Of a stretch of DNA of 44,313 nt, positions 241 through 11,264 are shown one piece after another. Below the pieces are notes generated by a model. That model was not told the origin of the DNA and did not search any database. It worked only from the letters and a program-made list of their open reading frames with translations. The position numbers and the translations under genes are program-made. The DNA comes from Zetaproteobacteria bacterium CG1_02_55_237 (GTDB taxonomy: Bacteria > Pseudomonadota > Zetaproteobacteria > Mariprofundales > Mariprofundaceae): contig MNXA01000051.1 in the NCBI GenBank assembly GCA_001871195.1, positions 1 through 44,313 on the forward strand, written 5' to 3'. Positions within the stretch are counted from its first letter, which is position 1, and every line of letters begins with the position of its first letter.

Positions 241-302
241 ACCAAAACCAAACCGGACAACCCTTGTGCTCTAAAACCGGACAACTCTATTTGTTGCCAA
301 CA
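2..302 (+). mobile_element. Insertion sequence, transposase-side terminus (left copy)
   Basis: Bases 2-302 are identical to the reverse complement of 44013-44313 without a gap or mismatch, and identity stops exactly at 302/44013. Position 302 is therefore the element's end, in the sequence TTGTTGCCAACA. Between the transposase stop (240) and the end there are 62 bases carrying two direct copies of AAACCGGACAAC, at 250-261 and 274-285, the kind of site a transposase binds. The end lies inside the 3' part of the HD-GYP gene. The rest of the element, its other end and any target duplication are outside the window. Confidence 0.85.
250..285 (+). repeat. Tandem 12-bp motif in the IS terminus
   Basis: AAACCGGACAAC occurs at 250-261 and again at 274-285, so the copies start 24 bases apart. 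The second copy is 17 bases from the element's end. The same pair is mirrored at 44030-44041 and 44054-44065 in the other copy. A likely role is transposase recognition of the end; this is inferred only from position and repetition. Confidence 0.5.
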
Positions 303-1887
303 TCTCGTCGAGTTGTTCGGGACGGAGATATTGTCGGGCGTAGTCTTCATAGACCTTTTCGCGCACAAACACATCGAAGAGGTCGGGATCGATATGATTG
401 TCCAGTTTCATATTGCCAAGTATCTGCAGGGCTCTGGAGATCGGCATCGCCTTTTTGTACGGCCGATCGGAAGCTGTCAGCGCTTCGAAAATATCGGCAA
501 TGGCCATGGTGCGCGCCTGCACCGACATCTGTTCGCGAACCAGACCATTGGGATAACCCTTACCATCCATGCGTTCATGATGGCCTCCTGCGAATTCAGG
601 CACATTGCGCAAATGCTTCGGGAAGGGCAAGGACTCGAGCATCTTGATGGTCATGACGATATGATCATTGATGATCTCGCGCTCTTCAGGAAGGAGGGTG
701 CCTTTGGCGATGGTGAGGTTTTTAACTTCCTCCTCGGTTAACAAGGGGACTTCTTCCCTTTCGGCATTGCGCCATGTTTGCGTGGCAATCCGGCGCACCC
801 GGTCCTGATCCTCTTCACGCATGAACTCACCACCGGTGTTACAGCGGCGAAGAAACTGACGATCATCTTCAATTTGCTTTATCTTATCCTGATAGCTTTG
901 TTCTATTTCCCTCAGGGACTCAGCATCATCAGACCTGCAGTTGCGTTTGGCATCCGCATATTCGTAATCGGCCATGAGGTGGAGAGAGGCAAACCGGGCG
1001 TTTATCAAATTAATGCGGTCACAAATCGTTTCCAGCTTGGTCGATTTCTCAACGACATATTCCGGTGTCGTGATCTTGCCGCAATCATGAAGCCAGGCGG
1101 CGATCTCCAGTTCATATCGTCCGCCATCGTCCAGCGTAAAATCCTGCAAAGGCCCGCTATCCTGCCTGCTTGCTGCTTCCGCCAGCATGAGGGTCAGTTC
1201 CGGTACGCGGGTGCAGTGTGCGCCCGTGTGAGTTGATTTTTTATCGATGGCCGTTGCGATCAACTGAATGAAGGATTCGAACAGGATGCGCATCTCTTCG
1301 ATAAGGCGTTTGTTGGTCAGTGCAACCGCAGCCTGTGAGGCCAGGGATTCCGCCAGCTGCTCATCTCGCTTGCCGAAGGCCGTGATCTCTTTGCCTTCCG
1401 CATCCAGGGCGTTAATCAGCTCCAGCACGCCGATGATATCGCCGTTGTGATCCTTCATCGGCACGCACAAGAAAGAGGTCGATCGGTAGCCCGTCTTGGC
1501 ATCGAAGGCGCGCGTGCCGGAAAAGTCGAAATCGGTGGCGGTGTAGGCATCCGGGATGTTGATGGTCTTATCGTGCAGCACCGAACAGGCGACCACCTGC
1601 TCGAGGTTTGCTCTCCCATGTTCGTCATGCAGCCTGACCGGAGGAAACGGGATGTCATTGCCCGTGGTGCCGCCCATGGCGAAGCCAAGGCTGTCGGTAC
1701 GGATGACCTCAAAACGCAGGTTGCCGTCGTCGTCCATCATGAACAGCGTGCCGGCGTCCGAATGAGTCAGTTTCTTGGCTATGATCAGGATCAGCTCAAG
1801 CAGATGTTCCTGACTTTTCTCCCGGGATAAGGCGACCCCAAGCTCATTCAAATCCTTGATGGCGTCCATCGGCTTGTAAATTCTCAT
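271..1887 (-). CDS. GAF / HD-GYP cyclic-di-GMP phosphodiesterase, 3' end altered by IS
   Basis: A likely cytoplasmic signalling enzyme that hydrolyses cyclic di-GMP. Residues about 20-195 form a GAF sensor domain. The HD-GYP domain follows: HTGAHCTRV near 220, LHDCGK with HD at 267-268, a His at 409 and HHERMDGKGYP at 436-446, all metal or signature residues present. Between HD and the next His lies a charged, partly helical insert of roughly 130 residues where the family usually has about 30. The start has a good AGGGGG site. The last host-encoded residue is about Met529; the final nine residues and the TAG stop come from the inserted IS. No transmembrane segment or receiver domain is seen. 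Family assignment is secure; activity with the new tail is unknown, though the catalytic core is complete. Confidence 0.9.
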   Translation of the reverse strand: MRIYKPMDAIKDLNELGVALSREKSQEHLLELILIIAKKLTHSDAGTLFMMDDDGNLRFEVIRTDSLGFAMGGTTGNDIPFPPVRLHDEHGRANLEQVVACSVLHDKTINIPDAYTATDFDFSGTRAFDAKTGYRSTSFLCVPMKDHNGDIIGVLELINALDAEGKEITAFGKRDEQLAESLASQAAVALTNKRLIEEMRILFESFIQLIATAIDKKSTHTGAHCTRVPELTLMLAEAASRQDSGPLQDFTLDDGGRYELEIAAWLHDCGKITTPEYVVEKSTKLETICDRINLINARFASLHLMADYEYADAKRNCRSDDAESLREIEQSYQDKIKQIEDDRQFLRRCNTGGEFMREEDQDRVRRIATQTWRNAEREEVPLLTEEEVKNLTIAKGTLLPEEREIINDHIVMTIKMLESLPFPKHLRNVPEFAGGHHERMDGKGYPNGLVREQMSVQARTMAIADIFEALTASDRPYKKAMPISRALQILGNMKLDNHIDPDLFDVFVREKVYEDYARQYLRPEQLDEMLATNRVVRF

Positions 1888-2051: not shown

Positions 2052-3593
2052 TCAAACCCCCGAATACTGGGCATGTACCTTGCGGGCATGCATGCCCGGG
2101 AGTTTATTCAGGGCATCAATCAGGGCCTTGGCGGAAGCAACGACGATGTCGGTGTCCTTGCCCTGGCCGTTGACGATGCGTTCACCGTTCTGCAAACGAA
2201 CGGTTACCTCGCCTTGTGCATCGGTGCCGGCAGTAATGGCGTTTACCGCATACAAAAGCAGTTTGCCGTTTGGTTCGACCAGCGACTTGATTGCCTTGAA
2301 TGCGGCATCCACCGGGCCATCACCTTCGGCGGTGGCCTTGTGCGACTGGCCTTCGATCTCCAGTTCGACGGCAGCCACTGGCGTATCGCCGGTTCCGGAA
2401 GCGGCATGCAGGCTGATTAATTTGACGCGTTCGGATTCGACGTCATCTCCATGCTCCAGAATAGCCATCAAATCCTCGTCGAAAATGTCCTTCTTCTTGT
2501 CGGCCAGCCGCTTGAAGTGTTCGAACACTGCGATCAGTTCATCACCATCCAGCTCAATGCCCAACTCGGCATAGCGCGATTTCAGAGCCGCGCGCCCGGA
2601 GTGTTTGCCCAGCACCATGCGGTTGGTTTTCCAGCCGACCGATTCCGGGGTCATGATTTCATACGTTTTCTGATGCTTGAGCATACCGTCCTGATGAATG
2701 CCTGATTCATGCGCAAAGGCGTTGGCGCCGACAATCGCCTTGTTCGCCTGCACCGGCATGCCGGTGATCTGGCTGACCAGTTTGGAGGTAGGCACGATTT
2801 TTGTCGTGTCGATGCCTGTTTCAATGCTGTAGCGATCTGAACGGGTGCGCAGAATCATTACCACCTCTTCCAGCGAAGCGTTACCCGCGCGTTCGCCCAG
2901 ACCGTTGATGGTGCACTCCACCTGGCGTGCCCCGTTTTCCACGGCGCTCAGCGAGTTGGCCACGGCCAGCCCCAGATCGTTGTGGCAGTGCACCGAAAAA
3001 ATCGCCTTATCCGAGTTCGGCACGCGTTCACGCAGCTCTTTGATGCGACCGCCAAACTCCTGTGGGGTCATGTAGCCGACGGTGTCCGGGATGTTGATGA
3101 CGCGCGCACCAGCGGCAATCGTCGCTTCGATAATGCGGCACAGGAAATCCATTTCCGAGCGACCGGCATCTTCAGCAGAAAACTCCACCTCGGGCGCCAG
3201 CGAACGTGCCTGTTTCACGGCAGCCACAGCCATTGCGAGCACCTCGTCCGGCTGCATGCGCAGCTTGGCCTGCATGTGGATGGGACTGGTGGCGATAAAT
3301 GTATGGATGCGGGCCTGCTCGGCCGGTTTTACAGCCTCGGCAGCGCGCTCAATATCCTTTGGATGGGCACGTGCCAGCCCGGCAATGATCGGACCTCTCA
3401 CATCGGTGGCGATGCGGTGTACTGCCTCGAAATCACCCGGAGAGGCAATGGGAAAGCCCGCTTCGATGATGTCCACGCCGAGCACGGCCAGCGCATGCGC
3501 AACGCGCAGCTTCTCATCCAGATTCATCGAGCAGCCGGGCGACTGCTCGCCATCACGCAGGGTGGTATCGAAGATGTACAAACGGTCGGACAT
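2052..3593 (-). CDS. leuA: 2-isopropylmalate synthase
   Basis: First committed step of leucine synthesis: condenses acetyl-CoA with 2-oxoisovalerate to give 2-isopropylmalate in the cytoplasm. At 513 residues it is the usual bacterial long form. The N-terminal TIM barrel shows [13 protein letters not shown] (Arg13, Asp14), HCHND at 202-206 and GLGERAGNA at 231-239. Asp14, His202, His204 and Asn238 match the metal and substrate residues of the family. The C-terminal part (about 390-513) is the leucine-binding regulatory domain, so feedback inhibition is expected. It lies downstream of pssA, an arrangement often seen at the end of ilv-pssA-leuA clusters. A leader peptide and terminator lie just upstream, so it is likely controlled by attenuation. 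Confidence 0.97.
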
Positions 3594-3660
3594 GGGGTTC
3601 TCCTATCTTTGCCGATTCTGCCGGTTTGCCGGGTGCGGCGTCTAGTTCTTTGCGACCCCT

Positions 3661-3698
3661 AAAAAACAACAAGGCCGCAGGATGTGGCTGCGGCCTTG
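3661..3698 (-). terminator. leu attenuator terminator
   Basis: On the minus strand CAAGGCCGCAG (3698-3688) pairs perfectly with CTGCGGCCTTG (3680-3670) around a seven-base loop, followed by TTGTTTTTT. It is a textbook intrinsic terminator placed about 70 bases before the leuA start and about 37 bases after the stop of a leucine-rich leader ORF. The leader sequence TGCGGT, inside the last codons of the leader, can pair with GCCGCA of the 5' arm, a candidate antiterminator. Position between leader and structural gene argues for an attenuator and not simply the pssA terminator. Confidence 0.85.
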
Positions 3699-3734
3699 AT
3701 TAATAAGTCATGGAATGATTTCCGGACTAATACC

Positions 3735-3806
3735 TCACATACCGCACTTTCGCCTGCCTAGAAGTAGCAGACGATGATGGGTCGGAAGCAGACGAAATTC
3801 ATTCAT
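3735..3806 (-). CDS. leuL: leu operon leader peptide
   Basis: A 23-codon ORF, ATG at 3806 and TGA at 3737-3735, with six leucines including a run of four (CTG CTA CTT CTA) at residues 13-16. CTA is normally a scarce codon. The ORF ends just before the intrinsic terminator upstream of leuA. Ribosomes stalling at the Leu run when charged tRNA-Leu is low would free the antiterminator and let leuA be read. The last Leu codon is 12 bases before the presumed antiterminator segment, a fitting distance. No good Shine-Dalgarno is visible and the predicted transcription start falls almost on the ATG, so translation may be leaderless. An in-frame ATG at 3830 would give 31 residues but lies within the predicted promoter. 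Confidence 0.8.
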   Translation of the reverse strand: MNEFRLLPTHHRLLLLGRRKCGM

Positions 3807-3813
3807 ACGGCGG

Positions 3814-3842
3814 AGTAAAGCATTGCCCATCGGGGCTGTCAA
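3814..3842 (-). promoter_or_regulatory. Candidate sigma70 promoter for leuL-leuA
   Basis: Minus strand TTGACA (3842-3837, full consensus), a 17-base spacer and TTTACT (3819-3814, four of six). It lies 27 bases after the pssA stop. The expected start site is at about 3807, next to the leader ATG. Confidence 0.55.
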
Positions 3843-3868: not shown

Positions 3869-4627
3869 TTACGGGGCCTCGTTGTCCGGGGTGTCCGGTT
3901 CATCGTGCTGGATTTCTTTCTTGTGCCGGCCGGTAATGCCGAGCAGGACGCCATGAATACAGTAGGCCAGTACCAGCACGAACAGGAAGGTATGCGGATT
4001 GACCATGACGAAGGCAATGACCACCAGCATGATGAGCAGCAATATCGCCGGTTTACGTTGTTTGAGATCCACATCCTTGCCGGCAAAAAAGGGAACATTG
4101 CTGACCATCAGCCAGGCCAGCGAGACGGAAATGGCGAACCACAACCAGGGGATGGGGTCGAACCCGGCATCCTCATGGAACAGTACGGCCGTGGCGATAA
4201 GCATGGCGGATCCAGGGGTGGGCAAGCCGTTAAAGAATTTCTTGCTCTGGGTATCCAGCTGCACATTGAAGCGGGCCAGGCGCAGTGCGGCACCGGCAGC
4301 AAGTAGAAAGGCTGCCATCCAGCCTGCCTTGTGTAGTGGTGCCAGCGCCCACATATACATCAATACGGCTGGTGCGATGCCGAAGGACAACATATCGCAC
4401 ATGGAGTCGTACTGAGCGCCGAAATCGGATTCGGCATGCAGCAGGCGGGCAACCCGACCATCGAGAATGTCGAAGATGGCCGCAGCAATCAGCGCCCAGG
4501 CGGCCAGTTCGAAGCGGCCCTGAACAGCCGCGATCAATGCATAGAAACCTGCAAAGAGGCCCGCCGTTGTGAACAGGCTGGGCAGGATATAGATGCCGCG
4601 TTCGCGGACAGAATTCACCTTACTCAT
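3869..4627 (-). CDS. pssA: CDP-diacylglycerol--serine O-phosphatidyltransferase
   Basis: Inner-membrane enzyme that makes phosphatidylserine from CDP-diacylglycerol and serine, the precursor of phosphatidylethanolamine. The CDP-alcohol phosphotransferase signature is complete: Asp53, Asp56-Gly57, Ala60-Arg61, Gly70, Asp74 and Asp78 in the D-x2-DG-x2-AR-x8-G-x3-D-x3-D pattern. The 252 residues hold about six to eight hydrophobic segments, which fits the PssA type II (Bacillus-like) family. The tail is charged and acidic. The Shine-Dalgarno is weak. The gene reads toward leuA with its own promoter and attenuator between them, so the two may be partly uncoupled. No psd gene is seen in the window. 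Confidence 0.93.
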   Translation of the reverse strand: MSKVNSVRERGIYILPSLFTTAGLFAGFYALIAAVQGRFELAAWALIAAAIFDILDGRVARLLHAESDFGAQYDSMCDMLSFGIAPAVLMYMWALAPLHKAGWMAAFLLAAGAALRLARFNVQLDTQSKKFFNGLPTPGSAMLIATAVLFHEDAGFDPIPWLWFAISVSLAWLMVSNVPFFAGKDVDLKQRKPAILLLIMLVVIAFVMVNPHTFLFVLVLAYCIHGVLLGITGRHKKEIQHDEPDTPDNEAP

Positions 4628-4695: not shown

Positions 4696-4873
4696 GCTAC
4701 ATGCATCCGGCGACTTGCCAATACATTGAGCCTTATGTGTTGCATTTATATCCCGGCGGTGGAAATTGGCATGCCCCTGGTTCAGCCTGCAGTGTAGGGA
4801 ATTAAACGAGTAACGATGTGTATGATGAGCTACAATGCAACATAAAAAGTCAGCAATGGAGAAAGCGATAACG

Positions 4874-6217
4874 ATGAAAGGAGGACGGACAGGCTTGCGA
4901 TTCTTGCTATTCCTTGGCTGTCTTCTGCTGCCGGCAGGGCTCAGGGCGGAACCGCTCAGCCTGCAACAGGCGGTGGATTTGGCGCTGGCGCACGCCCCGG
5001 CTGTGCAGGCTGCCGAGGCCGGGCGTGATGCTGCGGCCGAGGATGAGGCACTGGGCCGTTCCTGGTTGTTGCCCTATATCGAGGCCAGCGGTTCTATTCA
5101 GCGGCGCAGGCATAATACGGCCTACGATACGCCGCAAACCCTGTTTAAAAACGACCTGAACTACAACGAGAACACCATTGGCGTGCGTGTGGTGCAGTCG
5201 CTATTCGATCTGGAGCGCTGGGCCGGTTACCGGCAGGGGGAGCTCTCCGCCGAGTCGGGAGAACTGCGTCTGCGTCTGGAACGCCAGCGCTTGATGCTGG
5301 AAACGGTGCAGGCATTTCTTGATGCGATGACGGCGCAGGCGGCATTGAGTGCTGCCGGGGCACGCGAGACTGCAGCGCAGAAGCTGGCCGTACAGGCTGA
5401 AGCAGCGCAGCGCGTTGGCACCGCAGCCATGCCCGAACGGCTTGATGCCGAGGCGCGCCGCGATCTGGCGAAAGCCGACCGTTTGCGCGCCGAAAACGAT
5501 CTGGATCAGGCCCGATCCCGGCTGGCTTCGTTGATCGGAAGTTCCGTGGATGGGCTGAATCCACCTCAGTTTGCTGATGTCACTGCCGATCTGGCGAACA
5601 TGAAACCGGAGGCGTGGGAAGAGAAAGCGGCGGCTCAGGCGCTGCCCGTGCAGCTCGCCGGGGTGCAGTTCGGTGTAGCAGAACAGGGCAAGCGGAAAGC
5701 ACTGGGCGGTGCCCTGCCCAAGGTTGAAGCTTTCGGGCAAATCAGTCGTGACCGCTCATCCGATACGATATTGAACCGGGGCGTGACGGTGCGCGATCAG
5801 GCCATTGGCGTGCAGGTGAAGATGCCGCTTTATGCTGGCGGTGGCACCACGGCACAGATGCGCAAGAGCGAGAAAGAGGCTCTGCAGGCCGAATTTCTAA
5901 TGGCCGACGATGTCCGTCTTGCAAGGCTCACAGCACGACAGGCCTTTCTCGCCATGCGGGCCGCAGGTGCGCAGCTTGAGGCGACGCGGCAATCCGTCCT
6001 TTCTACCAGCAGGGCCGCTGATGCCGCGCATCTCGGGCATGATGTCGGTCTGCGCAGCATCAGCGAAGTGCTCGATGCAGATGAGCGGACCTTTACTGCG
6101 CAAAAGAATCTGGCCGCAGCCTCGGCGCAGTATGTGTTCGCCGCGTTGCAGCTGCGGGCGAGCGTCGGTGAGCTGACCGGCAGACCTTTGCCGGCCGTGT
6201 TCGGTGAGTTGCCATGA
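4874..6217 (+). CDS. TolC-family outer-membrane efflux protein
   Basis: Outer-membrane channel of a tripartite exporter. From the ATG at 4874 the protein has 447 residues with a clear signal peptide (hydrophobic FLLFLGCLLLP, cleavage after LRA), then the opening LSLQQAVDLAL typical of outer-membrane efflux proteins. Two repeats of long, alanine-rich amphipathic helices with short beta segments follow (for example IGVRVVQSLFD and IGVQVKMPLYAGG). In-frame ATGs at 4835 and 4856 are possible, but GGAG at 4858-4861 and the position of the signal peptide favour 4874. TACAAT at 4831-4836 is a possible -10. It heads an operon with an HlyD-type adaptor and an ABC transporter, its likely partners. Confidence 0.9.
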   Translation: MKGGRTGLRFLLFLGCLLLPAGLRAEPLSLQQAVDLALAHAPAVQAAEAGRDAAAEDEALGRSWLLPYIEASGSIQRRRHNTAYDTPQTLFKNDLNYNENTIGVRVVQSLFDLERWAGYRQGELSAESGELRLRLERQRLMLETVQAFLDAMTAQAALSAAGARETAAQKLAVQAEAAQRVGTAAMPERLDAEARRDLAKADRLRAENDLDQARSRLASLIGSSVDGLNPPQFADVTADLANMKPEAWEEKAAAQALPVQLAGVQFGVAEQGKRKALGGALPKVEAFGQISRDRSSDTILNRGVTVRDQAIGVQVKMPLYAGGGTTAQMRKSEKEALQAEFLMADDVRLARLTARQAFLAMRAAGAQLEATRQSVLSTSRAADAAHLGHDVGLRSISEVLDADERTFTAQKNLAAASAQYVFAALQLRASVGELTGRPLPAVFGELP

Positions 6218-6263
6218 AACATGCGTGTCCTGTCGATCAGGCTGATGCAGCGAGGAGTAAGAT

Positions 6264-7301
6264 ATGAAAAAAGTTCTGCGTCTGTTGATTCCCCTGCTTA
6301 TCCTTGCTGCCGCCGTCGGCTTCTGGAGAGCACAGAGTCATAACGGGGAATCGGATGGCGTGAATCTAAACCTCTACGGCAATGTCGATATGCGCGAAGT
6401 GGGCTTGGCCATCAACGGTGTCGGTCGCATTGCGGACATGCTTGCGCGTGAGGGTGAGCTGGTCAGCAAGGGGCAACTTTTGGCCAGACTGGACAGTGAT
6501 CGCTTGCAGGCCCTGGTAGCTAGAGCAGCCGCCCAGGTTGAGATGCAACAGGCGGTTGTTGCCCGGCTAGAGGCAGGTAATCGCCCCGAGGATATTCGCA
6601 GGGCAGGAGCCGATCTTGCAGCCGCCAGGGCACAGGCAAAGGATGCGGCGCGCACGGCGGCGCGTCTGCAAAGCCTGAGCAGCCGTGATTTGGCTTCCCG
6701 CGAACTGGCCGACAATGCAGCTACAGCAGCGGCGGCTGCGCATGAGCGGGTGAAGGCGGGCAGCGAGATACTGCAGCTGGCGGAGCTGGGGCCAAGGTCC
6801 GAGGATATCGATGCGGCTCGTGCGCAGTTGAAAGAAGCACAGGCGCAGCTGGCACTGGCTAATAAGGAATTGGCCGAGGCCGCCCTGTATGCCCCGTCCG
6901 ATGGCATGATTCGCAACCGCATCCTTGAACCCGGCGATATGGCCAGTCCGCAACGCCCGCTCTACACCCTGGCCATCACCAATCCCTTGTGGGTGCGCGC
7001 TTATGTATCGGAAACCGATCTCGGGCGGGTGCGTCCGGGTATGACCGCTGAAGTGAGCACCGACAGCTTCCCGGGCAAAGAGTATCGCGGCTGGATAGGT
7101 TATATCTCGCCGAGCGCCGAATTCACACCGCAGTCGGTGCAGACCGAGGAAATGCGCACGCAACTGGTGTATCAGGTGCGTATTTATGTATGCAATCCGC
7201 AAGGCGAGTTGCGCCTCGGTATGCCGGCAAGCGTGCATATCTCGCTTAAGCAGGCGCAGACGGCACCGGGCGGCAACGATCCCTGCCACGGGCAGGAATG
7301 A
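6264..7301 (+). CDS. HlyD-family membrane fusion protein (YbhG-like)
   Basis: Periplasmic adaptor joining the inner-membrane ABC transporter to the TolC channel. The 345 residues start with a Lys-Lys and hydrophobic stretch (signal anchor), followed by a split lipoyl/barrel region (GRIADMLAREGELVSKGQLL near 50-75), a long alanine-rich coiled-coil hairpin (about 85-205), then the second lipoyl half and beta barrel (DGMIRNRILEPGDM, WVRAYVSETDLGRVRPGM). A strong GAGGAG precedes the ATG. Its end overlaps the next gene by four bases. The arrangement adaptor, tandem ATPase and two permeases is that of E. coli ybhGFSR, reported to export cationic drugs; the substrate here is not known. Confidence 0.9.
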   Translation: MKKVLRLLIPLLILAAAVGFWRAQSHNGESDGVNLNLYGNVDMREVGLAINGVGRIADMLAREGELVSKGQLLARLDSDRLQALVARAAAQVEMQQAVVARLEAGNRPEDIRRAGADLAAARAQAKDAARTAARLQSLSSRDLASRELADNAATAAAAAHERVKAGSEILQLAELGPRSEDIDAARAQLKEAQAQLALANKELAEAALYAPSDGMIRNRILEPGDMASPQRPLYTLAITNPLWVRAYVSETDLGRVRPGMTAEVSTDSFPGKEYRGWIGYISPSAEFTPQSVQTEEMRTQLVYQVRIYVCNPQGELRLGMPASVHISLKQAQTAPGGNDPCHGQE

Positions 7302-9031
7302 CTGAAATCATAGTTGCCGAACCGGTTGCTGTTTTTACCGGGGTCGGCAAATCCTTTGTGGCGGGCAAGCGCCGTGTCGAAGCCTTGCGCGGGGTCAGCG
7401 CCCGGCTGCGTGCGGGTTGCGTGACCGGGCTGATTGGTCCGGACGGGGCTGGCAAAACCACCCTGATGCGCTTGCTGGCCGGACTGCTTAAACCTGATGC
7501 AGGCGAGATTCATGTGCTCGGGCAGGATGTGATTGGCGAGCCGTTGCGGGTGCAGCAGTCGCTTGGCTACATGCCGCAGCGTTTCGGTCTGTATGAGGAT
7601 CTGAGCGTGCAGGAAAATCTTGATTTGTATGCCGACCTGCAATGTGTTGCGCACGCCGCGCGACCTGAAAGATATGCAGAACTGATGCACATGACAGGAC
7701 TTGCTCCGTTCACCCATCGCCTTGCCGGCCAGCTCTCCGGCGGCATGAAACAGAAACTCGGGCTGGCATGTGCGCTGGTGCGTTCGCCCAAACTCCTGTT
7801 GCTTGATGAGCCGACCGCAGGTGTCGATCCGGTATCGCGCCGCGAGTTGTGGGAAATTGTCTATCGTCAGGTCGAACAGGCGGGGATGAGTGTGCTGTTC
7901 AGCACGGCCTACCTCGATGAGGCGGAACGCTGCGACGATCTTTTGCTGCTGCATCAGGGGCAACTGCTGGGGCAGGGAAAGCCTGCTGAATTCAGCAGCC
8001 GGATGCAGGGGCGAATATTCAATGTCAGCAATGGATCAGAATCCCGGCGCAGGCTGCAACAGCAATTGGTACAACAGGAATCGGTGCTGGATGCGCTGAT
8101 TCAGGGCGAGGCGGTGCGACTGGTGATGCACGAGGGCCGCAGTCCGCAAGGTGAGGTATGGGCGAAGGGCCTGAAAATTGAGCAGGCCGCGCCGCGCTTT
8201 GAGGATGCCTTTGTTGCCATGCTGGGCGGCGTTGGAGCGATAGCCCCGGAGGCGGTGCATGCAGCGGCCACTGTAACTGCGAAGAACGGGCCGGTGATCG
8301 AGGTGGCAGATTTATCGCGTAATTTCGGTGAATTCCAGGCCGTGAAGAGCATCGGTTTTCATGTTGAGCGCGGCGAGGTGTTCGGTCTGCTGGGTGCCAA
8401 CGGTGCGGGTAAATCAACCACCTTCCGCATGCTCTGCGGGCTGCTGCCGGCAAGCAGCGGCAGTCTCACCGTTGCAGGGATGAATCTGCGTGATGCTCCG
8501 GCCAGTGCGCGTAGCCGCATTGGCTATATGTCGCAGCGCTTTTCGCTGTATGGCACGCTCAGCGTGCTGGAAAACCTGCGCTTCTTCAGCAGCGTCTACG
8601 GCCTGTCGGGCAAGGGGCGGCGTGCACGCATCGACTGGGCTTTTGAGCGTTTCGACCTGCACGATATTGCCGACACGGCGAGCGATGATTTATCACTTGG
8701 CTACAAACAACGGCTGGCCATGGCCGCGGCACTGCTGCACGAGCCGGATATCCTGTTTCTCGACGAGCCGACCTCGGGTGTCGATCCGTTGGCCCGGCGC
8801 GAGTTCTGGCAGCGCATCAATCTGCTGGCCGAACAGGGGGTGACCGTGCTGGTCACCACGCATTTCATGGAAGAAGCGGAATACTGTGACCGCCTGGTGA
8901 TTATGGCCGAGGGAAGCATTCTGGCTTCTGGCACTCCTCAGGCCATCAAGCAGACGGCGGCGGCCACGGGTGAAAAGGTGGCGACAATGGAGGATGCCTT
9001 TATCGCGCTCATCCAGCGGGAGGCTGCGTGA
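7298..9031 (+). CDS. ABC transporter, tandem ATP-binding protein (YbhF-like)
   Basis: Cytoplasmic ATPase of the exporter with two nucleotide-binding domains in one chain. Domain 1 (about 10-235) has Walker A GPDGAGKT at 47-54, signature LSGGMKQ and Walker B LLLLDEPTAGVD. Domain 2 (about 335-560) has Walker A GANGAGKS at 366-373, a divergent signature LSLGYKQ and Walker B ILFLDEPTSGVD. Both sites keep their catalytic Glu, and both have the His-switch region (domain 2 reads VTTHFMEEAE, domain 1 FSTAYLDEAE, where Tyr stands for the usual His). So site 1 has a good signature but an altered H-loop, site 2 the reverse. ATGA overlap with the adaptor gene; the stop overlaps the next start. Confidence 0.93.
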   Translation: MTEIIVAEPVAVFTGVGKSFVAGKRRVEALRGVSARLRAGCVTGLIGPDGAGKTTLMRLLAGLLKPDAGEIHVLGQDVIGEPLRVQQSLGYMPQRFGLYEDLSVQENLDLYADLQCVAHAARPERYAELMHMTGLAPFTHRLAGQLSGGMKQKLGLACALVRSPKLLLLDEPTAGVDPVSRRELWEIVYRQVEQAGMSVLFSTAYLDEAERCDDLLLLHQGQLLGQGKPAEFSSRMQGRIFNVSNGSESRRRLQQQLVQQESVLDALIQGEAVRLVMHEGRSPQGEVWAKGLKIEQAAPRFEDAFVAMLGGVGAIAPEAVHAAATVTAKNGPVIEVADLSRNFGEFQAVKSIGFHVERGEVFGLLGANGAGKSTTFRMLCGLLPASSGSLTVAGMNLRDAPASARSRIGYMSQRFSLYGTLSVLENLRFFSSVYGLSGKGRRARIDWAFERFDLHDIADTASDDLSLGYKQRLAMAAALLHEPDILFLDEPTSGVDPLARREFWQRINLLAEQGVTVLVTTHFMEEAEYCDRLVIMAEGSILASGTPQAIKQTAAATGEKVATMEDAFIALIQREAA

Positions 9032-10149
9032 TGATCAGCGGCATGCGAATGCGCGGTCTGATGCGCAAGGAATTCCTGCAGATATGGCGTGATCCGAGCA
9101 GCATTGCGATTGCCTTTGTGCTGCCGGTGTTGTTGTTGTTTATTTTCGGCTACGGCGTGTCGCTCGATGCCAAGCATGTACCGATTGCGCTGGTCGTGGA
9201 GCAGCAGGATGCGGCGACGGCCTCGTTCACCGGCGCCTTTCGTAAGCTGGATTATTTCGCGCCGCTTCCATTTGCCAATATGCGGGATGCGGAAGAGGCC
9301 ATGCGGGAAGGCGAGGTGGAGGCGATTTTGCATCTGAAGAGCGATTTCGGTCGCACGATTTTTCAGCCGGGTGGCGCGCCAGCGCAGCTCATCGTTAATG
9401 GCGTGAACGCCAACACGGCAAGGCTGATCAGTGGTTATGCGACGGGTGTTTGGGCCACGTGGCTGCAACAGTATGCAGCGCTCAATGCGCGGTCGTTTAA
9501 CGTCCCGGTCATGGTGCAAAGTCGGGTGTGGTTCAACAGTGAGTTGAAGAGCCGCAACTATCTGGTCCCTGGCCTGATTGCTGTGATTATGACGTTGATC
9601 GGGGCACTGCTCACTGCGCTTGTGGTATCGCGTGAATGGGAACGGGGCACGATGGAGTCGTTGATGGCCACACCGGTCTCAATGAGCGAAATCCTGCTCG
9701 GCAAGATCATTCCCTATTTCCTGCTTGGTACCGGTGGCATGCTGCTTTCTGTGGCCATGGCTGTGTGGCTGTTCGGCGTGCCGCTGCACGGGTCTTTCTT
9801 CCTGCTCTTCGGGGTTGCCTCGCTGTTTCTGCTGGTGGCGCTCGGTATGGGCCTGCTGATTTCCACGGTAGCCAAAAATCAGTTTGTTGCCTCGCAGATC
9901 GCGCTGGTCGTTACCTTCCTGCCGGCCTTCCTGCTTTCCGGTTTCATCTTCGAAATTGCCAGTATGCCGCAGGTTGTGCAGTTCATTACGCATATCATCC
10001 CGGCGCGCTATTTTGTTGCCCTGCTGCACACCCTGTTCATGGCTGGAAATATCTGGTCCGTGATTGTTCCCAATACGCTGGCCCTGGCCATCATGGCACT
10101 GTTTTTCATGGGGCTGGTGTGGCGGATTTCCCGCAAGAGGCTTGATTGA
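9031..10149 (+). CDS. ABC-2 type permease (YbhS-like)
   Basis: Inner-membrane subunit of the exporter, 372 residues. One membrane helix near the N-terminus (FVLPVLLLFIFGYGVSL), a large periplasmic domain (about 45-170, with VWFNSELKSRNYLVPG at its end), then five more helices, as in ABC2_membrane_3 proteins. The segment SREWERGTMESLMATPVS is the conserved cytoplasmic loop of the family. GGGAGG at 9018-9023 is best spaced for the ATG at 9031; a GTG at 9028 in the same frame would add one residue. Pairs with the next permease to form the heterodimeric channel served by the tandem ATPase. Confidence 0.9.
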   Translation: MISGMRMRGLMRKEFLQIWRDPSSIAIAFVLPVLLLFIFGYGVSLDAKHVPIALVVEQQDAATASFTGAFRKLDYFAPLPFANMRDAEEAMREGEVEAILHLKSDFGRTIFQPGGAPAQLIVNGVNANTARLISGYATGVWATWLQQYAALNARSFNVPVMVQSRVWFNSELKSRNYLVPGLIAVIMTLIGALLTALVVSREWERGTMESLMATPVSMSEILLGKIIPYFLLGTGGMLLSVAMAVWLFGVPLHGSFFLLFGVASLFLLVALGMGLLISTVAKNQFVASQIALVVTFLPAFLLSGFIFEIASMPQVVQFITHIIPARYFVALLHTLFMAGNIWSVIVPNTLALAIMALFFMGLVWRISRKRLD

Positions 10150-11264
10150 TGGGTTCCCTGCGACGCATTTTAGCCCTGATGGGCAAAGAGTTTCTTGCCC
10201 TGTTAAAGGACAATAAGGGACGCTTTGTGCTCATCGGCCCGCCCATCATCCAGTTGATGGTGTTCGGGTATGCCGCGAGCTTCGACCTTAATCATGTGCC
10301 GTACGCCATCTACAACGAAGACGGTGGAGCCGCCTCGCGCGCACTGGTGGCTCGTTTCGAGGGCGCACCGGCCTTCGATGTTGCGACCATCCTCCACCAC
10401 GACAGTGAGATTAAATCGCTGATCGATGACAAGCAGGTGCTGCTGGTGGTGCATATCGGACAACAGTTCAGTCGTGATCTGGCACTTGGCCAGTCTGCGC
10501 AGCTGCAGTTGATTGTTGACGGGCGAAATTCCAACACGGCGCTGATTATCCTGGGTTATGCCCGTAGCATTGTGCTGGGATTCAATGAGTCACAACTGCT
10601 TGCGGCGGGAGCTACCGGTCTGCCGGTGCATATCCAGACGCGAGCCTGGTTCAATCCCAATCTGCAAAGCCGCTGGTTCCTGATTCCGGGGATTGCCGGG
10701 CTGATTACGCTGGTGGTTACCATGATGGTCATTTCCCTTTCCGTGGCGCGTGAACGTGAGCAGGGCACCTTCGATCAGTTAATGGTTACCCCGCTACGCC
10801 CCTTCGAAATCCTGCTCGGCAAGGCCCTTCCCGGCTTTATTATCGGTGGCCTTGAGGGGACGCTGGTGATTCTGGTGGCGGTATTCTGGTTCGAGATTCC
10901 GCTGCTTGGCTCGCTTGTGACGCTGTACACCGGTCTGGCGCTGTTCCTGCTGTCGGCTATCGGTATCGGACTGATGATTTCATCCATGGCCGTTACCCAG
11001 CAGCAGGGATTTCTGGGTGCCTTCCTGTTCATTGTTCCTGCCATTCTGCTCTCCGGCTTTGCCACGCCGATTGAGAACATGCCCGAGGTGCTGCAATACA
11101 TCACGCTGGTCGATCCGATGCGCTATCTGATGGTGATTCTGCGTGGCGTATTTCTGGAGGGAACAAGCTTTACCATGCTGATTCCGCAGTTCTGGCCGCT
11201 GGCGATCATTGGCGTGGTTACGCTGAGCTTTGCTGCGTGGCTGTTTCGCCACAGGATGTACTAG
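10149..11264 (+). CDS. ABC-2 type permease (YbhR-like)
   Basis: Second inner-membrane permease, 371 residues, paralogous to its neighbour: N-terminal helix, periplasmic domain closing with RAWFNPNLQSRWFLIPG, the cytoplasmic loop AREREQGTFDQLMVTPL, and a C-terminal set of five helices including FLFIVPAILLSGFATPIENM. The ATG overlaps the upstream TGA by one base (TGATG), so the two permeases are translationally coupled. It is the last gene of the five-gene export operon and ends 57 bases from the convergent uvrC. I see no convincing terminator between them. Confidence 0.9.
   Translation: MGSLRRILALMGKEFLALLKDNKGRFVLIGPPIIQLMVFGYAASFDLNHVPYAIYNEDGGAASRALVARFEGAPAFDVATILHHDSEIKSLIDDKQVLLVVHIGQQFSRDLALGQSAQLQLIVDGRNSNTALIILGYARSIVLGFNESQLLAAGATGLPVHIQTRAWFNPNLQSRWFLIPGIAGLITLVVTMMVISLSVAREREQGTFDQLMVTPLRPFEILLGKALPGFIIGGLEGTLVILVAVFWFEIPLLGSLVTLYTGLALFLLSAIGIGLMISSMAVTQQQGFLGAFLFIVPAILLSGFATPIENMPEVLQYITLVDPMRYLMVILRGVFLEGTSFTMLIPQFWPLAIIGVVTLSFAAWLFRHRMY

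Follow-up and report, generated by a model that had tools for sequence, protein, structure and literature searches.

The leuL attenuator of Salmonella and Escherichia coli, the kind of element represented in Rfam by Leu_leader, places a Leu-run leader ORF rich in the rare CTA codon before leuA, and one strand is common to its antiterminator and terminator. In enteric bacteria, leuA heads the leuABCD operon. The Salmonella leu attenuator uses CUA as control codon, and exchanging this codon for CUG is reported to lower the sensitivity of the response (PMC1183508). In Epsilonproteobacteria, including Campylobacter, a LeuL leader with rare Leu codons precedes leuABCD (PMC3847290). In the experimentally studied trpL attenuator of Sinorhizobium meliloti, the leader-ORF ATG forms the 5′ end of the RNA, giving a leaderless leader peptide (PMC7298713).

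The window analysed here is the whole stretch of 44,313 nucleotides from Zetaproteobacteria bacterium CG1_02_55_237, whose genome assembly comprises 2.33 Mb on 54 contigs. Zetaproteobacteria are marine, iron-oxidising bacteria, and the named sequences nearest to the leuA of the window are zetaproteobacterial (Mariprofundus, Ghiorsea and other Mariprofundaceae). A first-pass annotation had read a leucine attenuator upstream of this leuA, a reading upheld by the conserved leader, Leu codons, hairpins and promoter described below. We regard it as very probable that this region controls leuA by ribosome-mediated transcription attenuation, and the sequence suggests that leuA would be controlled by charged tRNA-Leu.

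The leader resembles enteric leuL in its CTA-rich run of Leu codons before leuA and in the strand shared by antiterminator and terminator, but differs in that it has no covariance-model match, no Shine-Dalgarno sequence and almost no 5′ UTR, and in that the leuA of the window follows pssA as a single gene and does not head leuABCD. No Rfam leader family, enteric Leu_leader included, reached its gathering score in the window; at E-values up to 10, the sole leader-family match was a weak one to the Thr_leader terminator (19.7 bits versus 55). With epsilonproteobacterial LeuL, the leader shares a peptide of the 20–35 aa kind, several rare Leu codons near the C-terminus and a (here predicted) short terminated RNA, yet it comes from another bacterial class, and the RBS used there to predict relatives is absent here (PMC3847290). 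The likeness to S. meliloti trpL lies in the leaderless leader peptide, which the promoter position suggests for the window, whereas trpL senses Trp and regulates trpE(G) (PMC7298713). Leucine attenuation in Zetaproteobacteria or Mariprofundus was not found reported in the literature searched; an earlier mention is possible, for example in the proteobacterial attenuator survey of Vitreschak et al. 2004. The locus represents a textbook mechanism in a new group and not a new kind of switch, and leaves the understanding of attenuation unchanged; its contribution is to widen the range of leucine attenuation to the iron-oxidising Zetaproteobacteria, on good comparative evidence.

Leader ORF, promoter and gene order

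Inspection of the sequence places the leader in the pssA-leuA gap on the minus strand (3842–3660). Upstream of it lies a pssA-like CDP-alcohol phosphatidyltransferase gene (3869–4627, minus strand; Pfam CDP-OH_P_transf), and downstream lies leuA, encoding a 2-isopropylmalate synthase of 513 aa (2052–3593, minus strand; Pfam HMGL-like and LeuA_dimer) with the Shine-Dalgarno sequence AGGAG at 3600–3604 on the same strand. The order along the minus strand is TTGACA, 17 nt, TTTACT, 7 nt, leader ATG, terminator and leuA, so that clustered Leu codons, an intrinsic terminator before leuA and a promoter immediately before the leader ORF, as expected of an attenuator, are all found. Immediately downstream of leuA, a GAF and HD-domain protein (271–1887, minus strand) is a possible cyclic-di-GMP phosphodiesterase. 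A divergent cluster on the plus strand (4835–11264) encodes an outer membrane efflux protein, a membrane-fusion-like protein, a double ABC ATPase and two more ORFs, and looks like an ABC efflux system.

The leader ORF announced in the first-pass annotation was recovered at 3806–3735 on the minus strand; it comprises 23 codons (MNEFRLLPTHHRLLLLGRRKCGM), with the four consecutive Leu codons CTG CTA CTT CTA at 3770–3759, a cluster that is kept in relatives with CTA enriched. Only a single short ORF of the window has four Leu codons in succession, and a strong terminator comes after it; in 40 randomised windows generated with a first-order Markov model, such ORFs numbered 0.68 on average and none had a terminator. 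Leu makes up 204 of the 784 codons of the leaders (26%) versus 7.3% in the matching leuA genes, and CTA accounts for 40 of these 204 Leu codons (∼20%) versus 14 of 1235 in leuA (∼1%); among the long ORFs of the window, some of which are not genes, CTA constitutes 1.9% of Leu codons. The CTA bias of the zetaproteobacterial leaders has its counterpart in the leu attenuator of Salmonella (PMC1183508).

The −35 box TTGACA (3837–3842, minus strand) is separated by a 17-nt spacer from an extended −10 box, TGC-TTTACT (3814–3822, minus strand; TTTACT at 3819–3814). The TTGACA/TTTACT promoter that had been claimed between pssA and leuA is thus present, and comparison of 37 leaders reveals that its distance to the leader ATG is fixed in relatives. 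TTGAC[ACT] occurs in 37/37 leaders, the spacer is 16–18 nt in 37/37, and a TG one base upstream of the −10 box is found in 16/37. The −10 box and the leader ATG are 7 nt apart in 33 leaders; two leaders have 6 nt here and another two have 9 nt. The 9-nt pair starts with ATGATG and its first ATG therefore lies at 6 nt, such that the first ATG is 6–7 nt past the −10 box in all 37 (7 nt in the window). An automatic promoter scan of the window did not report this promoter because its rule accepts a −10 box only with A as the second base. As transcription usually starts about 7 nt after the −10 box, the RNA would start at or beside the leader ATG. A Shine-Dalgarno-like stretch of even 4 nt is absent from 31 of the 37 leaders, and the leader ORF of the window also has no Shine-Dalgarno sequence, unlike leuA, which has such a stretch of 4–7 nt in every case counted. 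The placement of the ATG together with the prevailing absence of a Shine-Dalgarno sequence indicates that translation of the leader ORF probably proceeds on a leaderless RNA.

Terminator, antiterminator and conditional folding

The 11-pair hairpin with T-run that the first-pass annotation placed after the leader ORF was located at 3698–3670 (3660–3698 with the T-run, minus strand). The stem of this intrinsic terminator has 11 pairs, 8 of them GC, with the tail TTGTTTTTTA, leaves 76 nt between its end and the leuA start codon and carries two-sided compensatory changes across 30 leaders. The antiterminator is composed of TGCGGT (3741–3746, minus strand) as the 5′ strand and GCCGCA (3689–3694, minus strand), inside the 5′ arm of the terminator, as the 3′ strand, and it contains a small hairpin, AGTC-c-GGAA/TTCC-at-GACT (3706–3728, minus strand), similar to one in L047 and L050. 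In the predicted 1:2 (protector) hairpin (3728–3791, minus strand), 3791–3777 pairs with about 3747–3728 and encloses a hairpin of the Leu codons (3774–3766/3758–3750). The pairing of TGCGGT with the terminator 5′ arm proposed in the first-pass annotation is thus possible with GCCGCA, although it consists of only 6 pairs, one of them G-U, and in a best-complement scan 60 of 200 shuffles were as good, such that the pairing alone is within chance and the support comes from relatives and from conditional folding.

In the first large group of relatives, the segment following the Leu codons, GGCCTGTG, is complementary to the terminator 5′ arm CACAGGCC, and in the second, GGCTCGTG pairs with CACGAGCC (or TACGAGCC). 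A second helix within the antiterminator of relatives spans the stop codon (TGCTGA/TCAGCA; GACTGA/TTAGTC). In a subset alignment of 22 leaders, on which the antiterminator was assessed, 92% of cells are paired versus 28–43% in slid registers. Two-sided changes occur at 5 of 14 pairs; the covariation score was reached by 0 of 500 shuffles but is inflated by kinship of the sequences, the slid-register control being the more telling, and independent covariation events are few, as two groups supply most of the two-sided changes. In the clade of the window the register is shifted toward the stop codon, with TGCGGT/GCCGCA in the window, GCGGCCT/AGGCCGC in L050 and CTGCG/CGCAG in L048 and L049; pairing analysis gave no clear antiterminator in L047, of the same genus as the window. 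When all 30 leaders are folded to one consensus, the structure contains the terminator and no antiterminator, because the antiterminator register differs between the clade of the window and the others.

Conditional folding was computed at equilibrium with an assumed ribosome footprint on the window leader cut just before the 3′ arm of the terminator. Without a ribosome, the antiterminator probability is 0.002 because the long 1:2 hairpin sequesters TGCGGT. Placing the ribosome at any one of the four Leu codons raises it to about 0.8–1.0 per pair, and with a ribosome at the stop codon the antiterminator is blocked and cannot form. The antiterminator is thus, in computation, freed at the control codons and blocked at the stop codon, in line with the switch expected from folding with and without a ribosome at the Leu run. 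Of 300 dinucleotide-shuffled versions of the upstream part, not one matched this switching. In the full-length leader at equilibrium, the terminator wins in every state, and the switch must therefore be kinetic, with the antiterminator forming first. The 1:2 hairpin that favours termination without translation is a strong prediction in the window but not in most relatives, where the antiterminator forms also without a ribosome; the model thus suggests that their default without translation should be readthrough. Leaders of the Ghiorsea group (L078, L092 and others) have a second, earlier Leu cluster, CTG TAC CTG CTC, which in the full fold is base-paired to the antiterminator strand in a manner resembling a 1:2 hairpin with control codons in it.

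In the proposed mechanism, RNA polymerase would start at or beside the ATG of the leader ORF. With ample Leu-tRNA, the ribosome would reach the stop codon and cover TGCGGT, such that the terminator at 3698–3670 forms and leuA is off. When charged tRNA-Leu is scarce, above all the one reading CTA, the ribosome would stall at CTG-CTA-CTT-CTA and open the 1:2 hairpin; the freed TGCGGT would pair with GCCGCA in the terminator 5′ arm, the terminator would not form in time and leuA would be transcribed. Without translation, the 1:2 hairpin would keep TGCGGT covered and the terminator would form. For the wider proposal, of a leucine attenuator across Zetaproteobacteria with a leaderless leader ORF and a lineage-dependent untranslated default (off in the organism of the window, with its strong 1:2 hairpin, and on in most relatives), we judge the chances to be even.

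A strong terminator does stand between pssA and leuA and small ORFs are common, so that the hairpin could be a plain terminator of pssA and the short ORF a chance reading frame. This explanation is very improbable: promoter, ORF and antiterminator are conserved jointly with the Leu cluster and the codon bias, a promoter between pssA and the hairpin would be senseless for a pssA terminator, and the randomised windows speak against a chance ORF. Sensing of leucine by other means would be slightly less probable still, be it through a riboswitch, a T-box (leucine or uncharged tRNA) or a protein that binds the leader. Each could use the same terminator/antiterminator pair, but no Rfam family reached its gathering score here, the leader region giving matches at chance level only, and it is translation that accounts for in-frame Leu codons, a stop codon inside the antiterminator and the rare CTA. 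To an equally slight degree, the short ORF might be translationally coupled or yield a functional leader peptide, and act in this way instead of by termination control. Trans-acting leader peptides are known (peTrpL, PMC7298713); however, the terminator and >100 nt separate the ORF from leuA, and the C-terminal residues of the leaders track the RNA pairing (GLCVC versus GSCTD types) and not one fixed peptide. Ribosome-mediated attenuation thus remains the preferred reading.

Distribution among Zetaproteobacteria

Besides the window, a Leu-rich leader ORF with a terminator was found upstream of leuA at 33 of 49 zetaproteobacterial loci, a count from simple pattern rules that may miss some leaders and that includes L052 despite its sparser Leu codons (YLPLR). 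In agreement with the first-pass annotation, which expected the leader ORF, Leu codons and alternative hairpins to be conserved, these were found in close as well as distant Mariprofundaceae. In L065, the promoter is present and the ORF contains Leu, but the Leu codons are not clustered and the rule used found no terminator. At the other 15 of the 49 loci, the leader was not recognised (L051, L066, L067, L069, L071–L073, L076, L077, L080, L081, L084, L088, L094 and L095); where loci without the attenuator were read out, leuA lies close behind pssA, several times with hardly any gap, or behind unrelated sequence. A sequence model of the leader gave one strong match per leader-bearing genome, always upstream of leuA, and its search for a moved copy in the genomes without a leader before leuA yielded no convincing match. 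From these sequences, the 15 lineages without a recognised leader seem to have lost the attenuator or never had it.

The absence of the leader in about one-third of relatives, the probable lack of both 5′ UTR and RBS, and the strong 1:2 hairpin go beyond the first-pass annotation. An easily missed small ORF is thereby supplied for about two-thirds of the members examined, and the leaders form a natural series of apparently leaderless attenuators in which the antiterminator sequence is changed, with no leader at loci where pssA is directly followed by leuA. In several other Pseudomonadota (G041, G042, G045 and G051), ilvC and leuA are no more than about 3 kb apart; in the Zetaproteobacteria searched (G000–G025), ilvC is on a different contig or >10 kb from leuA, and the separate leuA leader may be linked to this split of ilvC and leuA.
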